This document shows positions 12,520-20,908 of a DNA stretch of 25,511 bases, one piece after another. The DNA is from a virus: the IMG/VR virus record IMGVR_UViG_3300032285_000996, positions 1 through 25,511 of that record. The stretch is one strand, 5' to 3'. The first letter of the stretch is position 1. The number at the start of each line of letters is the position of its first letter. Both the position numbers and the translations under genes were made by a program. The notes under the pieces are model-generated. The model ran no database searches. It was given only the letters and a program-made list of their open reading frames with translations, and was not told where the DNA came from.

Positions 12520-14388
12520 TTATATTGTCATTAAGTCGGATAAAGAAATTGTTGCTTGTTGTGATTTGTCATACCGTGTATGGAACATGGATTGACGATT
12601 GTGATTACGAGCAAATACATTTGCGCTATTGATGCGGTCACGCACTGCAAGTTCTGTAAACCAGAAAGCCATCACGCAGTCAGTCTTTTGTGTCTTAGGT
12701 GCATCTGGGTACCAAGTAACCAACTGCTCAATAAGAGCCTTAAGACCTTCTGACGAGTGAGTCGAAGGAAATTCAATTAAGTTATTTCCTTCTTCATACC
12801 CATGGAATAAAGTGGTTAGAGATGCAACACCAAAATCAGTGTCCCATTTATTTTGTCCTGTATGGTGTTCACGGAGTGTTGCACCTCTAGCCGATAGGTA
12901 TTCCCGTACCTCACGGTCCTGAGTCAACATCGCTTGAAATGCATTTTTCTCAACACGCCACTCAGAAATTCTGTACTTGTCAGTCCAGTCTTTAATGAGA
13001 GTTCTGATGTCATCTGGTTTCATACCAGGTACATTTGACACATCTAACAAGTATCGCTTTTGCGTTGCTAGGTCTACAGCAATACAGACAGCAGCGGTAT
13101 AACCAGACATAGCAGGGTCCAGTCCAGCCACAACAACCAGACCATCCATGCCTTCATGTCGGTTACCTGCCTTACCCTTAGGAATAATTCCAATGTTGCG
13201 GGCACCGTTGATGACACCCTTGATTGCTGCTGCAGGGAAAGCAGAATCTTCATGAACTTGTTGCTGTTGGTAAACCATTGCCCATAGGTTCGGTGACATA
13301 CGACCACGCTTTTTGGAAAGCGCCTCACCGTCCCACTTGGTATAAAGTCCATCCTCATCGGGGGTACCTTTACCTGAGACGGGAGGCATATTGGTTTTTG
13401 GCCAAAGCGTTACCCAGTCTTTGTATTCATCTTTAAATTCCAAGACCGCAGGTTGTGCAAAGTATGTCCATGGTGAAGTCTCATCAGGGTAGCGCATAGG
13501 GTCGCGCAGTTCTGAATACAAGTCGCGTGGACGAAGGCGGGTGCCTACTACCAGTAACTTGCCTCCGTCATTGTCAATACGGGACATAACTTCTGATTGA
13601 ATCCAGTCAATCTGCTTCTCGTACTCATGGGCGTTGGTATGGTCAACACAGTCGTCCATGATAATCAAGTCAGCACGGGCACCATAAATGTGTCCACGGA
13701 TACCAATAGCCTGAACTGTTGGGTCCTTTTCACCAGAGTTACGAGCCTCGGATGATAAGTAAATTAGGTCCTGCTTCCACGAATCAGAATTCTTTTCGAA
13801 CCCGCCTGGAGGTCCAAAGGCGAGATGTAGGTCCTGATAACGAGGATGGGTGAGTCTGTTCTTTATGGAGAGCAGGAACTTTTGCGCCATAGCCTGAGTC
13901 TTGGATACCACCAAGATACGGATGTTAGGGTTACGGCAAATCTGGTAGAGCGCGTAGTTGACGGTAATGGTCGTAGACTTGGCGTGCTCAGGGGGAGTAT
14001 TAACAATTAATAAATCTTTATCCCCAGGCTCATAGATGATACTAGGGTGGACATCGGAGGGGGTGGTACCCTCCAGCAAATCAATCCAATGCTTTTGGTG
14101 GGTAAAGACTTTTACACCTAGGTACTTCTCAGAAAACTCAGGAAACGGTGGTACCTCAACGGTACCGCTCTGTAGTTCCCCACGGGCGGTCATAGACCGA
14201 ACTTTGTCTATCTGGGTACGGAATGTCTCATCGGTCTTACGGTAGTATTCGTATGTCTTGACGGACCGACCGACAGCATCCATCGCCTTTTGGACGGAGT
14301 ACCCCTCCATCAGAAATTCTATAATTTGCTTTTTAATAGCATCCGCATTTTTAGTTTGCGAGTTAACTCTTTTAGTTTCCATAGGCAT
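12520..14388 (-). CDS. terL: Terminase large subunit with N-terminal helix-turn-helix
   Basis: This is the packaging motor ATPase and headful or cos nuclease. Residues 15-60 form a helix-turn-helix of the small-terminase type (GYSVQKAMDAVGRSVKTYEY). A variant Walker A, TPPEHAKST, is at 131-139 and Walker B LIIMDD at 241-246; VVGTRLRPRDLYSEL near 280-294 fits motif III. The RNase-H-like nuclease domain starts at GLDPAMSGYTA (Asp424) and ends with DCVMAFWF. The length, 622, is about 100 above many TerL proteins because of the DNA-binding head. No separate small terminase is visible nearby, so the fusion may replace it. ATG 14382 is an alternative start. There is no clear Shine-Dalgarno sequence; an RNA hairpin lies there instead. 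Confidence 0.92.
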   Translation of the reverse strand: MPMETKRVNSQTKNADAIKKQIIEFLMEGYSVQKAMDAVGRSVKTYEYYRKTDETFRTQIDKVRSMTARGELQSGTVEVPPFPEFSEKYLGVKVFTHQKHWIDLLEGTTPSDVHPSIIYEPGDKDLLIVNTPPEHAKSTTITVNYALYQICRNPNIRILVVSKTQAMAQKFLLSIKNRLTHPRYQDLHLAFGPPGGFEKNSDSWKQDLIYLSSEARNSGEKDPTVQAIGIRGHIYGARADLIIMDDCVDHTNAHEYEKQIDWIQSEVMSRIDNDGGKLLVVGTRLRPRDLYSELRDPMRYPDETSPWTYFAQPAVLEFKDEYKDWVTLWPKTNMPPVSGKGTPDEDGLYTKWDGEALSKKRGRMSPNLWAMVYQQQQVHEDSAFPAAAIKGVINGARNIGIIPKGKAGNRHEGMDGLVVVAGLDPAMSGYTAAVCIAVDLATQKRYLLDVSNVPGMKPDDIRTLIKDWTDKYRISEWRVEKNAFQAMLTQDREVREYLSARGATLREHHTGQNKWDTDFGVASLTTLFHGYEEGNNLIEFPSTHSSEGLKALIEQLVTWYPDAPKTQKTDCVMAFWFTELAVRDRINSANVFARNHNRQSMFHTRYDKSQQATISLSDLMTI

Positions 14389-14902: not shown

Positions 14903-14950
14903 ATGACCAGTCATGCCAGCCACGCTCAGAAAGTGTGACCAGTCTAACAC
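14903..14950. promoter_or_regulatory. Two palindromic operator-like sites upstream of the SprT-like gene
   Basis: ATGACCAGTCAT at 14903-14914 is a palindrome with a CA centre. GTGTGACCAGTC followed by TAACAC at 14933-14950 is a degenerate version of the perfect site GTGTGACCAGTCACAC found at 16110. The same TGACCAGTCA core makes these likely binding sites for one dimeric regulator, probably controlling the rightward cluster. Confidence 0.55.
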
Positions 14951-15041
14951 CCCTCAAATGTTGAGAATGGCGAGGAATGAGAGTAGAAATCTCCTAGTGC
15001 TTAAGTCACAAGGATTTAAGCCGATGACAGGAGAACAAGAA

Positions 15042-15680
15042 ATGACAGCAACAACAGCACTTAAGACAGGAAAGACAAGCAAGGCGGAGGCACTCTCAAC
15101 AATTACAAAAGCCCTTGAACAGGCTCATGAAATCATCAAGGCAGAAACAGGAGCGCCCCGCGCAACTCTTCTTGTGACCCGCGACCTCAAGGGTCGTAAG
15201 GGACATTTCACACCTTTCACACCGTGGACAACAGGCGAGGAGTCTTTCTCAGAAATCGCGTTTAACCTTGAGCACTTCACAACACCAGAAGAACTATTGA
15301 GCACCTTGTTGCATGAGGTAGCGCACTCAATTAATCACATGAATGGAATCGAGGACTGCTCATCGAACCAATACCATAACGCCAAATTTAAGACACAAGC
15401 CGAGGCGTTAGGTCTTAAGACACTAGAAATCAAGGGCAAGGGACACGCTGCAACCGAACTCACCGAACTAGGCGCTAAGCGATGGAAGAAAGCCCTCACC
15501 ATCCTAAGCAACGCTTTCGACCTCACCGCACTAGGCGGAGAACAGGCGAAGAAGAAGGGGCGCAATACCAACCTAATCAAGGCAATGTGCGAATGTGAGA
15601 ATGTAATCCGCCTCTCTCGCGGTGTCCTTGAATCAGGCGTGACATGCAACCAATGTGAGGAAGTGTTCAAGGAGGCTTAA
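15042..15680 (+). CDS. SprT-like zinc metallopeptidase
   Basis: This 212-residue protein carries the zinc-protease motif HEVAH at residues 91-95, followed by a third-ligand-type segment NQYHNAKF (110-117), and a C-terminal zinc ribbon (CEC at 183-185 and CNQC at 202-205). This is the SprT/Spartan order: peptidase helix then zinc ribbon. Family members cleave proteins bound or crosslinked to DNA; a phage role could be clearing host DNA-bound proteins. I choose ATG 15042, preceded by ACAGGAG at eight bases, over an in-frame ATG at 14913 that has no ribosome site and would place the operator repeats in coding sequence. It is the first gene of the rightward cluster. Its TAA stop lies in a CTTAAGACAG motif. 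Confidence 0.8.
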   Translation: MTATTALKTGKTSKAEALSTITKALEQAHEIIKAETGAPRATLLVTRDLKGRKGHFTPFTPWTTGEESFSEIAFNLEHFTTPEELLSTLLHEVAHSINHMNGIEDCSSNQYHNAKFKTQAEALGLKTLEIKGKGHAATELTELGAKRWKKALTILSNAFDLTALGGEQAKKKGRNTNLIKAMCECENVIRLSRGVLESGVTCNQCEEVFKEA

Positions 15681-15785
15681 GACAGAAACAGCCCCCGCAC
15701 CTCAAGCGGGCGCAGGTTCAAGACCTAGCGGGGGCACTAGCAAGGCGAGAGAGTCTCACCTTGTGACTTAAGACAGGAGAAAGAA
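15676..15785 (+). promoter_or_regulatory. Compound intergenic element 1 (leader of the 102-aa gene)
   Basis: In order: CTTAAGACA containing the upstream stop; an outer inverted repeat GCCCCCGC (15691-15698) with GCGGGGGC (15728-15735) around a 29-base loop; GGGCACTAGCAAGGC; a hairpin of ten pairs with one mismatch, CAAGGCGAGA with TCTCACCTTG (15741-15763); then TTGTGAC joined to TTAAGACAGGAGAAA and the ATG. The second half closely matches element 2. It could be a terminator-plus-leader or a regulated RNA structure; there is no U-run after the GC-rich stem. Confidence 0.6.
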
Positions 15786-16094
15786 ATGAACGCAATCCGT
15801 AAGCAATGGAACGAGGCTCAAGAGGGAGGCTTTGGCACCCCTACAACATGGCGCATGAGTCAGCAGATACGGGCACAGAAAGACGAACATGAGTCATTTC
15901 ATGACTTAATGCAGATTATCCCCGCAGAATTAAGAAATGAAGTCATCGCCCTATGGGTCAGAGGAACTCAAGCCTCAGCAGATGAGGCGTATAACCGCCG
16001 ATTACTTAAGTCAGAACTCAGCGAATTAGATTTCAACGAGACTCAGAACATAGCGCACGAGGCTTGGAAGAAGTTGCTCAAGATTAGTGCTTAA
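15786..16094 (+). CDS. Unknown protein (102 aa)
   Basis: A charged, mainly helical protein, 102 residues, with no recognised motif. The N-terminal part is RKQWNEAQEGGFGTPTTWRM, and the C-terminal half is likely two helices (DEAYNRRLLKSELSELDFNE, then NIAHEAWKKLLKIS). The start has the conserved cluster leader TTAAGACAGGAGAAAGAA before ATG. The stop codon is the TAA of another CTTAAGACAT motif, and in-frame ACTTAAGTC near 16005 encodes Leu-Lys-Ser. It is probably an early accessory protein, judging only from the location among small genes. Confidence 0.7.
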   Translation: MNAIRKQWNEAQEGGFGTPTTWRMSQQIRAQKDEHESFHDLMQIIPAELRNEVIALWVRGTQASADEAYNRRLLKSELSELDFNETQNIAHEAWKKLLKISA

Positions 16095-16223
16095 GACATA
16101 AGCGCAAAAGTGTGACCAGTCACACAGCCCTAATCCCTTGACAGGAGGCGCGAGTTCATGACTCAATTAGGGCACAAGCAAGGCAGGAAATACTTGCCTT
16201 GTGTATTAAGACGGGAGAAACAA
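16090..16223 (+). promoter_or_regulatory. Compound intergenic element 2 (operator, TTGACA box, nested hairpins, leader)
   Basis: In order: CTTAAGACATA with the upstream stop; the palindrome GTGTGACCAGTCACAC (16110-16125); TTGACA at 16138-16143; a perfect outer inverted repeat GCCCTAAT (16127-16134) with ATTAGGGC (16166-16173) whose 31-base loop holds an AGGAGG (16143-16148 region) and an ATG at 16158; GGGCACAAGCAAGGC; hairpin CAAGGCA (16179-16185) with TGCCTTG (16195-16201); then TTGTGTA, TTAAGACGGGAGAAA and ATG 16224. No good -10 follows TTGACA at 17 bases. The architecture parallels element 1 in its second half and element 3 in its first half. Confidence 0.6.
16110..16125. promoter_or_regulatory. 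Perfect 16-base operator-like palindrome GTGTGACCAGTCACAC
   Basis: The half-sites GTGTGAC and GTCACAC are exact reverse complements with a CA centre. Related sites at 14903, 14933 and 17112 all precede plus-strand transcription units, and at 14933, 16110 and 17112 a TTGA(C/G)A box follows after 9-12 bases. Spacing between TGTGA and TCACA is four bases, not the six of CRP-family sites, so a different regulator is expected. Confidence 0.6.
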
Positions 16224-16427
16224 ATGCTTAAGTTTTATGTAGTAAAAGAGGACGGCACTCACGCCATTGTTAAGTTCGAAACTCTCAAGGAGTTTTGGAA
16301 GTACACCTCTAAGAATTACATTAAAGAGATTCAAACCCTAGACAATGACACCACTTATTCATTCGGAAGCCTAACTCAACCAACAGTGAGCGACCCTATC
16401 CGTTCATTACTTAAGACAGGAGAATAA
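16224..16427 (+). CDS. Unknown protein (67 aa; alternative 89-aa form)
   Basis: A 67-residue protein of mixed beta/alpha character (LKFYVVKEDGTHAIVKFETL, then KEFWKYTSKNYIKEI) with no recognised family. The ATG at 16224 has the cluster leader GGGAGAAACAA upstream and matches the other starts. An in-frame ATG at 16158 has a stronger AGGAGG at nine bases and would add 22 basic residues (GHKQGRKYLPCVLRREKQ). Both may be used, giving two forms, or the upstream one may be a regulatory leader. The C-terminus ends at LLKTGE within a CTTAAGACAGGAGAA motif that also supplies the ribosome site of the next gene. Confidence 0.65.
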   Translation: MLKFYVVKEDGTHAIVKFETLKEFWKYTSKNYIKEIQTLDNDTTYSFGSLTQPTVSDPIRSLLKTGE

Positions 16428-16430
16428 AAA

Positions 16431-16760
16431 ATGACTTACACCATAAAAGAAACCGACTACATTTTTGCCGTAGCCGATAACTTTGCCACCGATTACACGC
16501 TAGTAACCGACAACGATTCAGATTCTTACCACGAAATTATGGACATGGAAGAACTAAAAGCGGGCAACATGAGCGGACTCAGTGACCGACTTAAGACAGA
16601 GTTTGAAACCTACATTAGCGAGGTAGTAGAGCGCGAACGCGAGAACGGACACGAGGCGGGCGCTTTGCTTATCTCTCAGTTACTTATCGGCATGGGTTCA
16701 ACCACTTTCGACATGATTGCCCGCCATTACTTAGCACTTAAGACAGAAAGCGAGGCTTAA
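16431..16760 (+). CDS. Unknown acidic protein (109 aa)
   Basis: A 109-residue acidic protein, Asp/Glu-rich, with probable helices in the C-terminal half (SDRLKTEFETYISEVVERER, then ALLISQLLIGMGSTTFDMIA). No catalytic motif is seen. The acidity and size recall small phage inhibitors of DNA-binding host proteins, but nothing specific supports that. The start follows ACAGGAGAATAAAAA three bases after the preceding stop. The gene contains two in-frame CTTAAGACA copies (RLKTEF, ALKTES), and its stop TAA lies in a third, CTTAAGACATG, which contains the start of the next gene. Confidence 0.68.
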   Translation: MTYTIKETDYIFAVADNFATDYTLVTDNDSDSYHEIMDMEELKAGNMSGLSDRLKTEFETYISEVVERERENGHEAGALLISQLLIGMGSTTFDMIARHYLALKTESEA

Positions 16761-16763
16761 GAC

Positions 16764-16874
16764 ATGAGCACCGATACATTATTTGGAATCGCTATTAGCA
16801 CCGCTGTAATCGTATGCCTTGCGGTTGCTTTCTCGCCAGAGTTCACCAACTGGCTCATAAGTTTGGGGTTTTAA
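16764..16874 (+). CDS. Small single-pass membrane protein (36 aa)
   Basis: A 36-residue protein with one hydrophobic segment covering roughly residues 5-23 (TLFGIAISTAVIVCLAVAF) and a short C-terminal amphipathic tail. The ATG begins three bases after the upstream stop, inside the motif CTTAAGACATG, so initiation is probably by coupling. It lacks its own Shine-Dalgarno. It is too small for a typical holin, though size does not exclude membrane-lesion, superinfection or antiholin roles. The next two genes overlap or abut it, and one also encodes a membrane protein. Confidence 0.55.
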   Translation: MSTDTLFGIAISTAVIVCLAVAFSPEFTNWLISLGF

Positions 16875-16875
16875 A

Positions 16876-16947
16876 ATGGAAACTATCTGCGGAGACTGCC
16901 TTATCCCACTCAACCAATGCCAACATGCGAAGGAGTACAAGCGATGA
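16876..16947 (+). CDS. Tiny zinc-knuckle-like peptide (23 aa)
   Basis: The 23-residue product has CGDC at positions 5-8 and CQH at 15-17, a CxxC...CxH arrangement able to bind one zinc. The ATG starts one base after the preceding stop, and the stop overlaps the next start as ATGA, the coupling pattern used elsewhere in this cluster. There is no clear Shine-Dalgarno. The cysteine spacing and exact junctions favour a real gene, but its shortness leaves doubt. Confidence 0.45.
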   Translation: METICGDCLIPLNQCQHAKEYKR

Positions 16948-17105
16948 AACTAACAAGACGAGGCAAGATAGTCAGAGCAATCTTTATTTATGTCTTAATA
17001 CTGACAGCAATTATCGGAGTATCAAACGCACTAGGTGTGTGGGATGTATCCGAGTCATGTCTAGTAGAGCAAGTCGGATGTCCCGCTGGATACCCTCTGC
17101 CTTAA
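16944..17105 (+). CDS. Small membrane-anchored protein (53 aa)
   Basis: A basic N-terminus (MKLTRRGKIVR) precedes a hydrophobic segment at about residues 12-30 (AIFIYVLILTAIIGVSNAL), then a short outside domain with two cysteines (SCLVEQVGC) that could form a disulfide. This is a signal-anchor topology with the C-terminus outside. ATG 16944 overlaps the tiny upstream gene as ATGA; an in-frame upstream start at 16917 lacks support. The stop TAA lies in CTTAAGACATA. With the 36-residue protein it forms a small membrane pair of unknown role. Confidence 0.6.
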   Translation: MKLTRRGKIVRAIFIYVLILTAIIGVSNALGVWDVSESCLVEQVGCPAGYPLP

Positions 17106-17198
17106 GACATAGTGTGACCAACGCCACACACAAAATGCTTGACACGCTATGCCACCAAGTGGCAGAGTAATAACTACCAACAACGACAGGAGAAACAA
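17101..17198 (+). promoter_or_regulatory. Compound intergenic element 3 (operator-like site, TTGACA box, hairpin, leader)
   Basis: CTTAAGACATA with the upstream stop is followed by GTGTGACCA and CACAC (17112-17129), TTGACA at 17139-17144, the hairpin GCCAC-CAA-GTGGC at 17151-17163, and the leader GACAGGAGAAACAA before ATG 17199. The order matches element 2, including the distance of about ten bases from palindrome to TTGACA. The best -10 candidate (CAGAGT, spacer 18) is poor, so if this is a promoter it may need the phage sigma factor or an activator. Confidence 0.55.
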
Positions 17199-17345
17199 AT
17201 GCAAAGACTAACAGCAAAGCAAGCGACCATAACAGTCACAATTAAATTGGGCAACGACATAGAGAGTTTCTTTTTCTATGACTCAGCCTCATACGCACAG
17301 ATTATTAACGCTATCAACAACGCACAACGACAGGAGGGAAACTAA
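17199..17345 (+). CDS. Unknown small protein (48 aa)
   Basis: A 48-residue protein with likely beta strands at the N-terminus (KQATITVTIKLGNDIESFFF) and one helix (ASYAQIINAINNAQRQ). No family is recognised. ATG 17199 is chosen because GACAGGAGAAACAA precedes it exactly as at other starts in this cluster; the frame is open further upstream without a ribosome site. The end of the gene overlaps the ribosome site of the next gene (GACAGGAGGG). Confidence 0.6.
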   Translation: MQRLTAKQATITVTIKLGNDIESFFFYDSASYAQIINAINNAQRQEGN

Positions 17346-18911: not shown

Positions 18912-19160
18912 ATGACACACGAAGAACTATTGGCAAAGGTAAATCAAGGAATAGAATCTTCTAATTATTCTAACTCTCTTGGTGAGTGGCACGCAGATAG
19001 TTTTCTTTCTGCCCTGCGTGCAGTAGTGGAATTGCATAAGCCAAAGAACTACATCATTAAAGGGTTTGAAGTTACAGAGTCTTGGTGTACTGCTGACTCT
19101 GAATCACTAACTCCATACCCCTGCTCAACTATTCAGGCTATTGAGAAGGAGTTAGAGTGA
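18912..19160 (+). CDS. Unknown protein (82 aa)
   Basis: An 82-residue protein starting THEELLAKVNQGIE, with SALRAVVELHKP in the middle and a C-terminal segment containing two Cys. The N-terminal pattern (EELL followed by LRAVVELH) is one I associate with small actinophage proteins of unknown function. The ATG lies three bases after the previous stop in a TTAAGACATG junction. The stop overlaps the WhiB start as ATGA, so the two are probably co-translated. Confidence 0.68.
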   Translation: MTHEELLAKVNQGIESSNYSNSLGEWHADSFLSALRAVVELHKPKNYIIKGFEVTESWCTADSESLTPYPCSTIQAIEKELE

Positions 19161-19498
19161 AGCCACAGTTCCACAGAGTAATCAGCGTTACTCATAGCAA
19201 GAACAGATACAACAAGGGCTTGATTGGTTATGTCTTAAGATACAACCAACGGCTATGGGACAAGGCAGTTTGCAGGGGTATAGACACAGAGATTTTCTAC
19301 CCAGCACAGGAGTTGTTCACTCGTGACGAGGAGCGCATGTTTGAGAAGATGTGTGTTGAGTGCCCCGTTATGATGGCTTGCCTTGAGTGGGGCTTAGCCC
19401 ATGAAAGGTACGGAGTATGGGGCGGGACGACACCACCCATGCGACACAAGATTAGAGCAAGGATTGGTTGGGCTTTGACAGAACCAAAACTTGGGTGA
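19157..19498 (+). CDS. whiB: WhiB-family iron-sulfur transcription regulator
   Basis: The 113-residue protein has the four cluster-binding cysteines at 39, 66, 69 and 75 (C...CVEC.....C) and the family signature GVWGG at 86-90, followed by a basic tail (RHKIRARIG). WhiB proteins bind a 4Fe-4S cluster and contact region 4 of the primary sigma factor to alter transcription; phage versions such as the one in mycobacteriophage TM4 can block host WhiB function. The N-terminal 35 residues are basic and longer than in minimal WhiB proteins. It is the last gene of the rightward cluster, ATGA-coupled to its neighbour and followed by a terminator. It is the main evidence that the host is an actinobacterium. 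Confidence 0.93.
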   Translation: MKPQFHRVISVTHSKNRYNKGLIGYVLRYNQRLWDKAVCRGIDTEIFYPAQELFTRDEERMFEKMCVECPVMMACLEWGLAHERYGVWGGTTPPMRHKIRARIGWALTEPKLG

Positions 19499-20136: not shown

Positions 20137-20258
20137 TTAACACCCCACCAAATACCTACTGCAAGTGGACCGAGGTATACCTCAATGCATTTAAGATTCT
20201 TGTAGTGCACTATACCAATACAAAACATGCGCCAGTTAAACTCATGTGTCAGTATCAT
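20133..20258 (-). CDS. Unknown small protein (41 aa)
   Basis: This 41-residue gene fills the gap between the sigma factor and the kinase. It starts with ATG 20258, which overlaps the sigma stop, has TAGGAG just upstream, and its TGA overlaps the kinase ATG. The product (THEFNWRMFCIGIVHYKNLK followed by a hydrophobic tail ending GIWWGVK) has no known motif; the C-terminal part may be membrane-associated. Perfect ATGA junctions on both sides make it a probable real gene. Confidence 0.6.
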   Translation of the reverse strand: MILTHEFNWRMFCIGIVHYKNLKCIEVYLGPLAVGIWWGVK

Positions 20259-20908
20259 TCTTCACTCCTATCTGGTCGGCGGTATCTACGGTTGTTCCAT
20301 TGTGGTTGCTCACCACCGAGTCGCTCTTGTAACTTGGTAAGTGCACGAGACACACGCTTGCGTACAGCCTCGTCACTAATCGAATACTCAACAGCAAGGG
20401 CATCTATGTCTGTGCCTCCCTCTGCGAACCTGCGTTGCAACAGCAACTGGTCTTGTTCATTTAGTTTCTTAAGACCGAAAGACACATCACTTAACATAGC
20501 CTCACGATTCATTCCCTCGTTGGGCTTGCTTGAGGTAGAGATGAACTCATCCTTAGGCGAGGAAGATACTGTCCACTGTTCATAGTTCCATACATCTTTC
20601 AGCAACTCTTGCAAGATGTCATGCGTGTAATAGAAAGCATCCGATGGTGTTGACTTAGTTTTATAGGCACGCTCTTTGGCGGCAAACTTCTGTGACTCGT
20701 TGTTAAATGTACGCTTGAGTTTAAATACCAATGAGTCTTGGTTATGCCACTCCTCAATCTTGTGCCAATGTTCTAGTGCCCAAAGGTTAAGGTGTTGGTA
20801 GACATCATCAGCCGTGACTAAGTGCCTATGAATACGGGTACATCTAGCAGCAGATAAGCGTGCTACTTTATAGACCTGTTCCCATAGTAAATCTTTCTCG
20901 TCACTCAT
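20255..20908 (-). CDS. Phage RNA polymerase sigma factor (sigma-70 family, ECF-like)
   Basis: The 217-residue protein has an N-terminal region 2-like segment (TADDVYQHLNLWALEHW at 32-48), a variable middle, and a C-terminal region 4 helix-turn-helix at about 150-196 (LNEQDQLLLQRRFAEGG, then ALAVEYSISDEAVRKRVSRA). It should direct host RNA polymerase to phage promoters. The Ser/Lys linker at 113-133 is unusual. It overlaps the upstream gene by eight bases and the downstream small gene as ATGA. Because WhiB proteins act on sigma region 4, this gene and whiB may form one control circuit. A HTH regulator without polymerase contact is the alternative. Confidence 0.78.
   Translation of the reverse strand: MSDEKDLLWEQVYKVARLSAARCTRIHRHLVTADDVYQHLNLWALEHWHKIEEWHNQDSLVFKLKRTFNNESQKFAAKERAYKTKSTPSDAFYYTHDILQELLKDVWNYEQWTVSSSPKDEFISTSSKPNEGMNREAMLSDVSFGLKKLNEQDQLLLQRRFAEGGTDIDALAVEYSISDEAVRKRVSRALTKLQERLGGEQPQWNNRRYRRPDRSEE

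Follow-up and report, generated by a model that had tools for sequence, protein, structure and literature searches.

What are the compound elements that lie between genes of the rightward early cluster in the virus record IMGVR_UViG_3300032285_000996 (IMG/VR), and are they copies of one regulatory module? The 25.5 kb record was analysed as a whole and is called the window here. A sequence-only reading of this DNA had described three related elements built of ordered blocks; all blocks it named were found, either where it had placed them or a few bases away. Elements 1 and 2 represent a genuine structured module that is exchangeable and undescribed; judged from sequence comparison, they are two forms of one intercistronic cassette of the early gene cluster. 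Relatedness held for these two, which have a fold in common; element 3 is not a third copy.

A structured core shared by two elements

The core consists of a helix P1 of 7–8 bp that encloses two hairpins, P2 and P3, with a single unpaired base ahead of the 3′ P1 arm and the dinucleotide RC behind it. The loop of P3 is a heptaloop, NNCRNRA. Downstream of RC many copies carry a further hairpin, P4, followed by TTAAGACAGGAGA, with a strong ribosome-binding site, and the ATG of the next gene. All features of the three elements lie on the + strand. The fold places the core of element 1 at 15691–15735 (P1 arms GCCCCCGC/GCGGGGGC at 15691–15698/15728–15735). This is the type I form, which is free of promoter motifs. 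The word CTTAAGACA (15676–15684) lies ahead of it, over the TAA stop of a SprT-like gene (15042–15680, + strand). The leader is opened by P4 (15740–15764), as indicated by folding and by the P4 hairpins downstream of other cores, and is closed by CTTAAGACAGGAGAAAGAA, which combines the word with a ribosome-binding site (RBS), and the next ATG at 15786 (15767–15788). Element 2 is of the type II form, the probable promoter-bearing one, with the folded core at 16127–16173 (P1 arms GCCCTAAT/ATTAGGGC at 16127–16134/16166–16173), P4 predicted by folding at 16178–16202 and the RBS ATTAAGACGGGAGAAACAA before the ATG at 16224 (16205–16226). The CAAGGC hairpins noted earlier are present in both. Folding z-scores were −3.0 for element 1, −3.5 for element 2 and −2.4 for element 3.

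Starting from the two window copies, 46 distinct members were found in fetched relatives and used to build a covariance model, R1, whose seed included the window copies. R1 scored elements 1 and 2 at 66.6 and 67.0 bits. It matched 119 sites in 58 loci, to which another 60 loci, retrieved through a DNA pattern, added 123; this gave 197 distinct copies with flanks across dozens of related phages. Near-complete records of the group rich in CTTAAGACA, searched whole, held 1–4 copies per genome. The other near-complete records gave no convincing copy (two matches with E values of 0.02–0.03 were 25-nt fragments), and among 55 loci with few or no CTTAAGACA words a clear match occurred in one, at a contig edge (L025).

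A second model, R2, was built from alignment A4, which contains rows of other loci and no window row; the hold-out is partial, since these rows had been aligned with R1 and its window-containing seed. R2 recovered element 2 with 65.1 bits (E = 3.5e-15) and element 1 with 61.2 bits (E = 4.5e-14), and had no match with an E value below 0.28 in 53 other relatives. Taken alone, the window, with its short arms and only two copies, would allow the elements to be unrelated hairpins that resemble each other by chance in a GC-rich gap. E values near 1e-14 from a model without window rows, and the 197 distinct copies, rule this out, and we give it practically no credence.

No Rfam 15 family matched the window at or above its gathering threshold. 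One sub-threshold match of element 1, to the tRNA-like mascRNA, was non-significant (15.6 against 42.5 bits, E = 7.3). What the Rfam search returned in 12 relatives was limited to one hammerhead and two tRNAs, all away from R1 sites; the tRNA genes are at L108:5982–6052 and L086:3087–3158. The module had been suspected to be undescribed, and this stands as far as Rfam and a limited literature search go; the general kind is known, namely phage intergenic promoter or repeat cassettes, SAS/ESAS elements and hammerhead-flanked genes.

Pairing is kept while the arms change

Two largely separate sets of copies were aligned, A2 (90 rows) and A4 (87 rows). The structure guided both alignments, and this biases the figures towards it. 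Standard pairs filled 89.8% of the pair cells in A2 (67.3% when shuffled) and 90.1% in A4 (68.8% when shuffled). Double changes numbered 303 against 89 in shuffled A2 and 264 against 69 in shuffled A4. The covariation score reached 0.514 in A2 (shuffled 0.156, slid structures at most 0.101) and 0.525 in A4 (shuffled 0.170, slid structures at most 0.121). Covariation was seen in both forms of the fold. The exchange is plain even in the arms of P1 alone, which read, for instance, GCCCCCG/CGGGGGC, GCCCTAA/TTAGGGC, GCCTCAA/TTGAGGC or GCCTTGC/GCAAGGC. P4 hairpins had a mean score of 5.4 compared with 1.3 after shuffling. The relatives thus bear out two proposals made from the window alone, that covariation between copies points to selected structure and that the blocks form an ordered compound; homologous gaps, examined for a lack of conserved pairing or order, did not refute them.

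One form carries a probable promoter with a CRP-type box

Type II copies, defined by an upstream box ending in CACA together with TT(G/T)AC in P2, make up 71 of the 197; 96 copies have neither feature (type I) and the remainder are mixed. The box of element 2 ends in ACACA, and this simple rule labels the element 'I+', yet both type II features are present. In type II the box reads A-TGTGA-N6-TCACA, TTGAC begins 11 nt later in 68 of the 71 copies, and P1 ends 29–31 nt beyond the −35 box. Counted from the predicted start, all 71 copies have A at −8 and C at +2, 99% have A at +1 and 87% have T at −7, where type I has C or G and rarely A. Exact pairs of CRP/GlxR half-sites were found 0–5 times per genome in 12 word-rich genomes, all with N6 spacing except one with N9. 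Type II has the arrangement of a CRP/GlxR-type promoter, in which TGTGA-N6-TCACA and the −35 box keep a constant spacing; the window boxes match 9 of the 10 letters. That type II is a sigma70-type promoter with a site for the CRP/GlxR family is well supported by this pattern, from which binding and activation are predicted.

In element 2 the palindrome GTGTGACC is at 16110; the CRP/GlxR-type box, TGTGA-N6-ACACA (16111–16126), has 9 of 10 consensus letters and directly abuts P1. TTGACA (16138–16143), the −35 box, lies within P2 at 11 nt from the CRP-type box. A −10-like hexamer, CTCAAT (16162–16167; family consensus cACnAT), would follow 18 nt past the −35 box and place the predicted start at A16174. 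Element 2 is likely to act as a promoter.

No CRP-type helix-turn-helix protein of the phage's own was found in the 25 phage records searched, and a phage-encoded regulator of this type was rejected; a host factor is thus the likelier partner. A WhiB-type factor (gene at 19157–19498, + strand) or a protein with sigma-70 region 4 (20255–20908, − strand), both encoded in the window, could help to read the type II promoter.

Element 3 has a second copy of GTGTGACC, at 17112, a CRP-type box TGTGA-N6-CCACA (17113–17128) and TTGACA (17139–17144), without a P1–P3 core. A spacer hairpin, TGCCACcaaGTGGCA (17150–17164), present in only some relatives, precedes the RBS GACAGGAGA and the ATG at 17199. Box, −35 box, hairpin and RBS are all it has in common with the others; neither R1 nor R2 matched it, and it was rejected as a third copy of the core. 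We regard it as a CRP-box promoter starting a leader without P1–P3, only partly related to elements 1 and 2. A promoter family resembling it, GTGTGACCAACATCACAC...TTGAC...CTACCAAC...GACAGGAGA, is conserved in relatives such as L003, L018, L114 and L144. In L006 an R1-type element instead leads the homolog of the gene behind element 3. Upstream of the SprT-like gene, a CRP-type box (14934–14949), TTGAGA (14961–14966) and TAGAAA (14984–14989) on the + strand probably form the first promoter of the rightward cluster.

Modules are exchanged between genes

Core, P4 and RBS of element 1 are identical to L171:1354–1408, with unrelated sequence on both sides. Element 2 is identical in CRP box and core to L108:192–248 up to the end of P1, beyond which P4 differs. 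In 58 pairs the elements were alike in core and P4 and unlike in their flanks. Grouping of the proteins encoded downstream gave 57 clusters, and in several of these the leader holds type I in some phages but type II in others (gene starts were called automatically, and some may be wrong). The occurrence of near-identical modules between non-homologous flanks upholds the earlier suggestion of a mobile or duplicated leader or promoter module.

The intergenic position would also suit terminators, attenuators or antiterminators of the put kind that separate operons, with a new promoter either within them or further downstream, and several type I copies do have a hairpin behind them and, beyond it, a CRP-box promoter. 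We consider this unlikely. Neither P1 nor P4 is followed by a U-tract, on which ground an intrinsic terminator was rejected, and a terminator scan gave no + strand site at elements 1–3. Promoterless type I copies stand directly before genes, which termination would silence, and if the role were put-like, each leader would be expected to hold a single copy, not the cluster several. A weak likeness to lambda boxA/boxB was noticed.

Hammerhead ribozymes occupy equivalent leaders

Rfam identified a type II hammerhead in L091 at 41.5 bits, above the threshold of 37; a second fell slightly short of it. A motif search of the loci found seven hammerheads, against none in a reversed control, each 15–24 nt before an RBS. 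Five of the seven lead a SprT-like gene, the gene that is led by an R1 element in L077; another precedes a gene whose homolog in L169 has an R1 element in its leader. In L091, where type II hammerheads lie on the − strand at 2294–2360, 2517–2583 and about 1575–1650, one read by eye follows the SprT-like gene, in the gap where the window has element 1. Further type II hammerheads stand directly before the RBS of early genes in L087, L088, L094, L046 and L147. These hammerheads are sequences separate from the R1 elements, and the hammerhead core (CUGANGA, GAAA and cleavage triplet) is absent from the cores of elements 1 and 2.

Hammerheads flanking phage genes have been proposed by Perreault and colleagues (PMC3088659) to cut long transcripts into gene-sized mRNAs. 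Their presence in equivalent leaders suggests that the module, too, may serve mRNA processing or stabilization; by analogy, the same transcript-cutting role is plausible for P1–P3, with lower certainty.

Whether P1–P3 is itself a self-cleaving RNA or a nuclease substrate that replaces the hammerheads, for example a tRNA-like target of RNase P or RNase Z, is a narrower question. The leader positions in common with hammerheads, the conserved RC after P1, the T-loop-like heptaloop and the weak, non-significant mascRNA match of element 1 would fit. The core has few conserved unpaired positions and no match to any ribozyme family, and the T-loop position that should be A is variable: position 5 of the heptaloop is C, A or T, and a canonical tRNA-like T-loop was rejected. 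We think such an activity improbable. The same low expectation applies to a bolder proposal, in which P1–P3 would be a new class of RNA that punctuates mRNA, cleaved by itself or by a host nuclease, interchangeable with hammerheads and fused to a CRP-controlled promoter, so that initiation and processing would give the same 5′ end.

A combined model and its main competitor

The best overall explanation, to which we assign roughly even chances, is an exchangeable cassette with a type II promoter in which P1–P3 serves as a cistron boundary in read-through RNA. A host activator of the CRP/GlxR family would drive a sigma70-type promoter with its −35 box in P2, its −10 at the P3/P1 junction and its start at the conserved R after P1, so that the mRNA would begin with P4. 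In RNA reading through from upstream promoters, P1–P3 would mark the boundary as a processing site or as a stable 3′ or 5′ end, and type I (element 1) would therefore yield the same kind of mRNA, a 5′ P4 hairpin and RBS, without a promoter of its own.

Several observations weigh against this model. The window copy has a weak −10. A generic sigma70 scan flagged nothing at this place, and its yield of promoters was no higher than in shuffled sequence. The putative CRP-type box would be centred at about −55.5, away from the standard class I and class II CRP positions. Where transcription starts, whether the RNA is cleaved and whether CRP binds are predicted from sequence patterns. In type II the predicted start comes after the fold, which could therefore act as RNA only in read-through transcripts. 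About two thirds of the copies miss a strict P4 score. Finally, of 1360 pair cells in P1 and P3, 1328 were Watson–Crick, 12 G-U and 7 A-C, with little strand bias, and such nearly pure Watson–Crick pairing would not normally be expected if selection had acted on the structure in RNA alone.

That G-U pairs are all but missing leaves room for a structure at the DNA level. The fold would then be a three-armed hairpin or inverted repeat bound by a phage or host protein, or a recombination site through which the cassette stays mobile, with RNA folding as a by-product. Precise exchange of the cassettes is consistent with this, as is the extent of the type II fold, which covers about −47 to −1 of the predicted promoter. 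For the ESAS of Cluster K phages, which likewise combines a promoter and an inverted repeat in 46–47 bp, pairing as RNA was judged not to occur (PMC3203893, PMC11373665). On the other hand, arm sequences vary freely while pairing is kept, which is not expected of a sequence-specific dimer site; P4 and RBS belong to the same cassette unit as P1–P3; and hammerhead RNAs sit in equivalent leaders. We hold the DNA-level explanation to be a minority possibility.

A genome-wide word

The sequence-only reading had counted CTTAAGACA among the blocks of the module. This was not borne out: the word lies at 15676, 15767, 16090 and 17101 near the elements, but it belongs to a genome-wide word that occurs 23 times in the window, where 0.23 would be expected; roughly half of these sites are within genes and in frame. 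In 12 word-rich genomes CTTAAGAC is the most over-represented 8-mer (330 against 27, both strands); eight sister genomes carry GTTTAAAC instead (672 against 31) and use it in two frames. Across the window and G001–G033 the words are clade-specific, with CTTAAGAC(A) in the window's group and GTTTAAAC in sister phages whose terminase large subunit (TerL) is 82–90% identical. Word sites number dozens per genome, in genes, gaps and stops, and are dense in one region, where they recur about every few hundred bases. Codon bias as the sole cause of CTTAAGACA was rejected, as LK is written CTT-AAG 274 times against 126 expected and a second open frame is also used. The words may be operator or stoperator sites with switched specificity.

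The phage and its setting

The phage is uncultured and probably infects actinobacteria. TerL (12520–14388, leftward) has 389 confirmed relatives, a large family in viral contigs, with many records near 40 kb; no phage record with a TerL more than 60% identical to that of the window was found. A search of genome contigs for prophages and hosts gave no TerL relative and no type II element, and the window has no tRNA genes. The family of isolated 'Ca. Planktophila' phages agrees with the window in WhiB, sigma factor, size and G+C (PMC10202952), which makes an actinobacterial host probable.

Comparison with known systems

The words CTTAAGAC and GTTTAAAC resemble both the stoperators of Cluster A phages (PMC9283540) and the 17-bp dispersed palindrome of Cluster O (PMC4351075) in being short sites that recur by the dozen throughout the genome, crowd in one arm and lie partly within genes. 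The sequences differ, and the likeness concerns the word, not the module.

For the module, the closest parallel is Cluster K (PMC3203893, PMC11373665), where SAS is a start-associated, RBS-like repeat of the early arm and about half of the copies have an upstream inverted-repeat ESAS of 46–47 bp with SigA-like −35 and −10 boxes 17–18 bp apart. Both systems are repeated early-arm compound elements tied to gene starts. The 13-bp SAS sequence GGGATAGGAGCCC was not found at gene starts, where the RBS-linked repeat is TTAAGACAGGAGA. The type II core spans 46–48 nt with a fixed −35 box and a −10-like AT; its window copy has the weak −10 missed by the general scan. The arms of ESAS follow a consensus sequence within a subcluster and their pairing as RNA is unsupported, whereas the arms of the window family vary and covary. 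Two enclosed hairpins, P4, a CRP-type box and a promoterless form further set the family apart from ESAS, and no sequence relationship was seen.

Like the hammerheads that flank prophage genes (PMC3088659; Rfam RF02276), R1 elements are structured RNAs in the leaders of single genes or short blocks; unlike them, they lack the GAAA/CUGANGA core and match no Rfam family, and their cleavage is only predicted.

The family, absent from Rfam and nearly 200 copies strong, occurs in a widespread type of actinobacteria-infecting phage that is probably mostly freshwater. It connects three questions that tend to be treated separately: the cutting of long early transcripts, the reshuffling of small early genes with their control regions and the possible coupling of early promoters to a host CRP-type signal. 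Since hammerhead ribozymes take its place in some relatives, the processing idea can be put to a direct test. Phages of the T4 type carry comparable cassettes, PeSL, in which a promoter and a stem-loop between genes may aid gene shuffling; they differ from the window family in the phages concerned, in promoter type and in fold.

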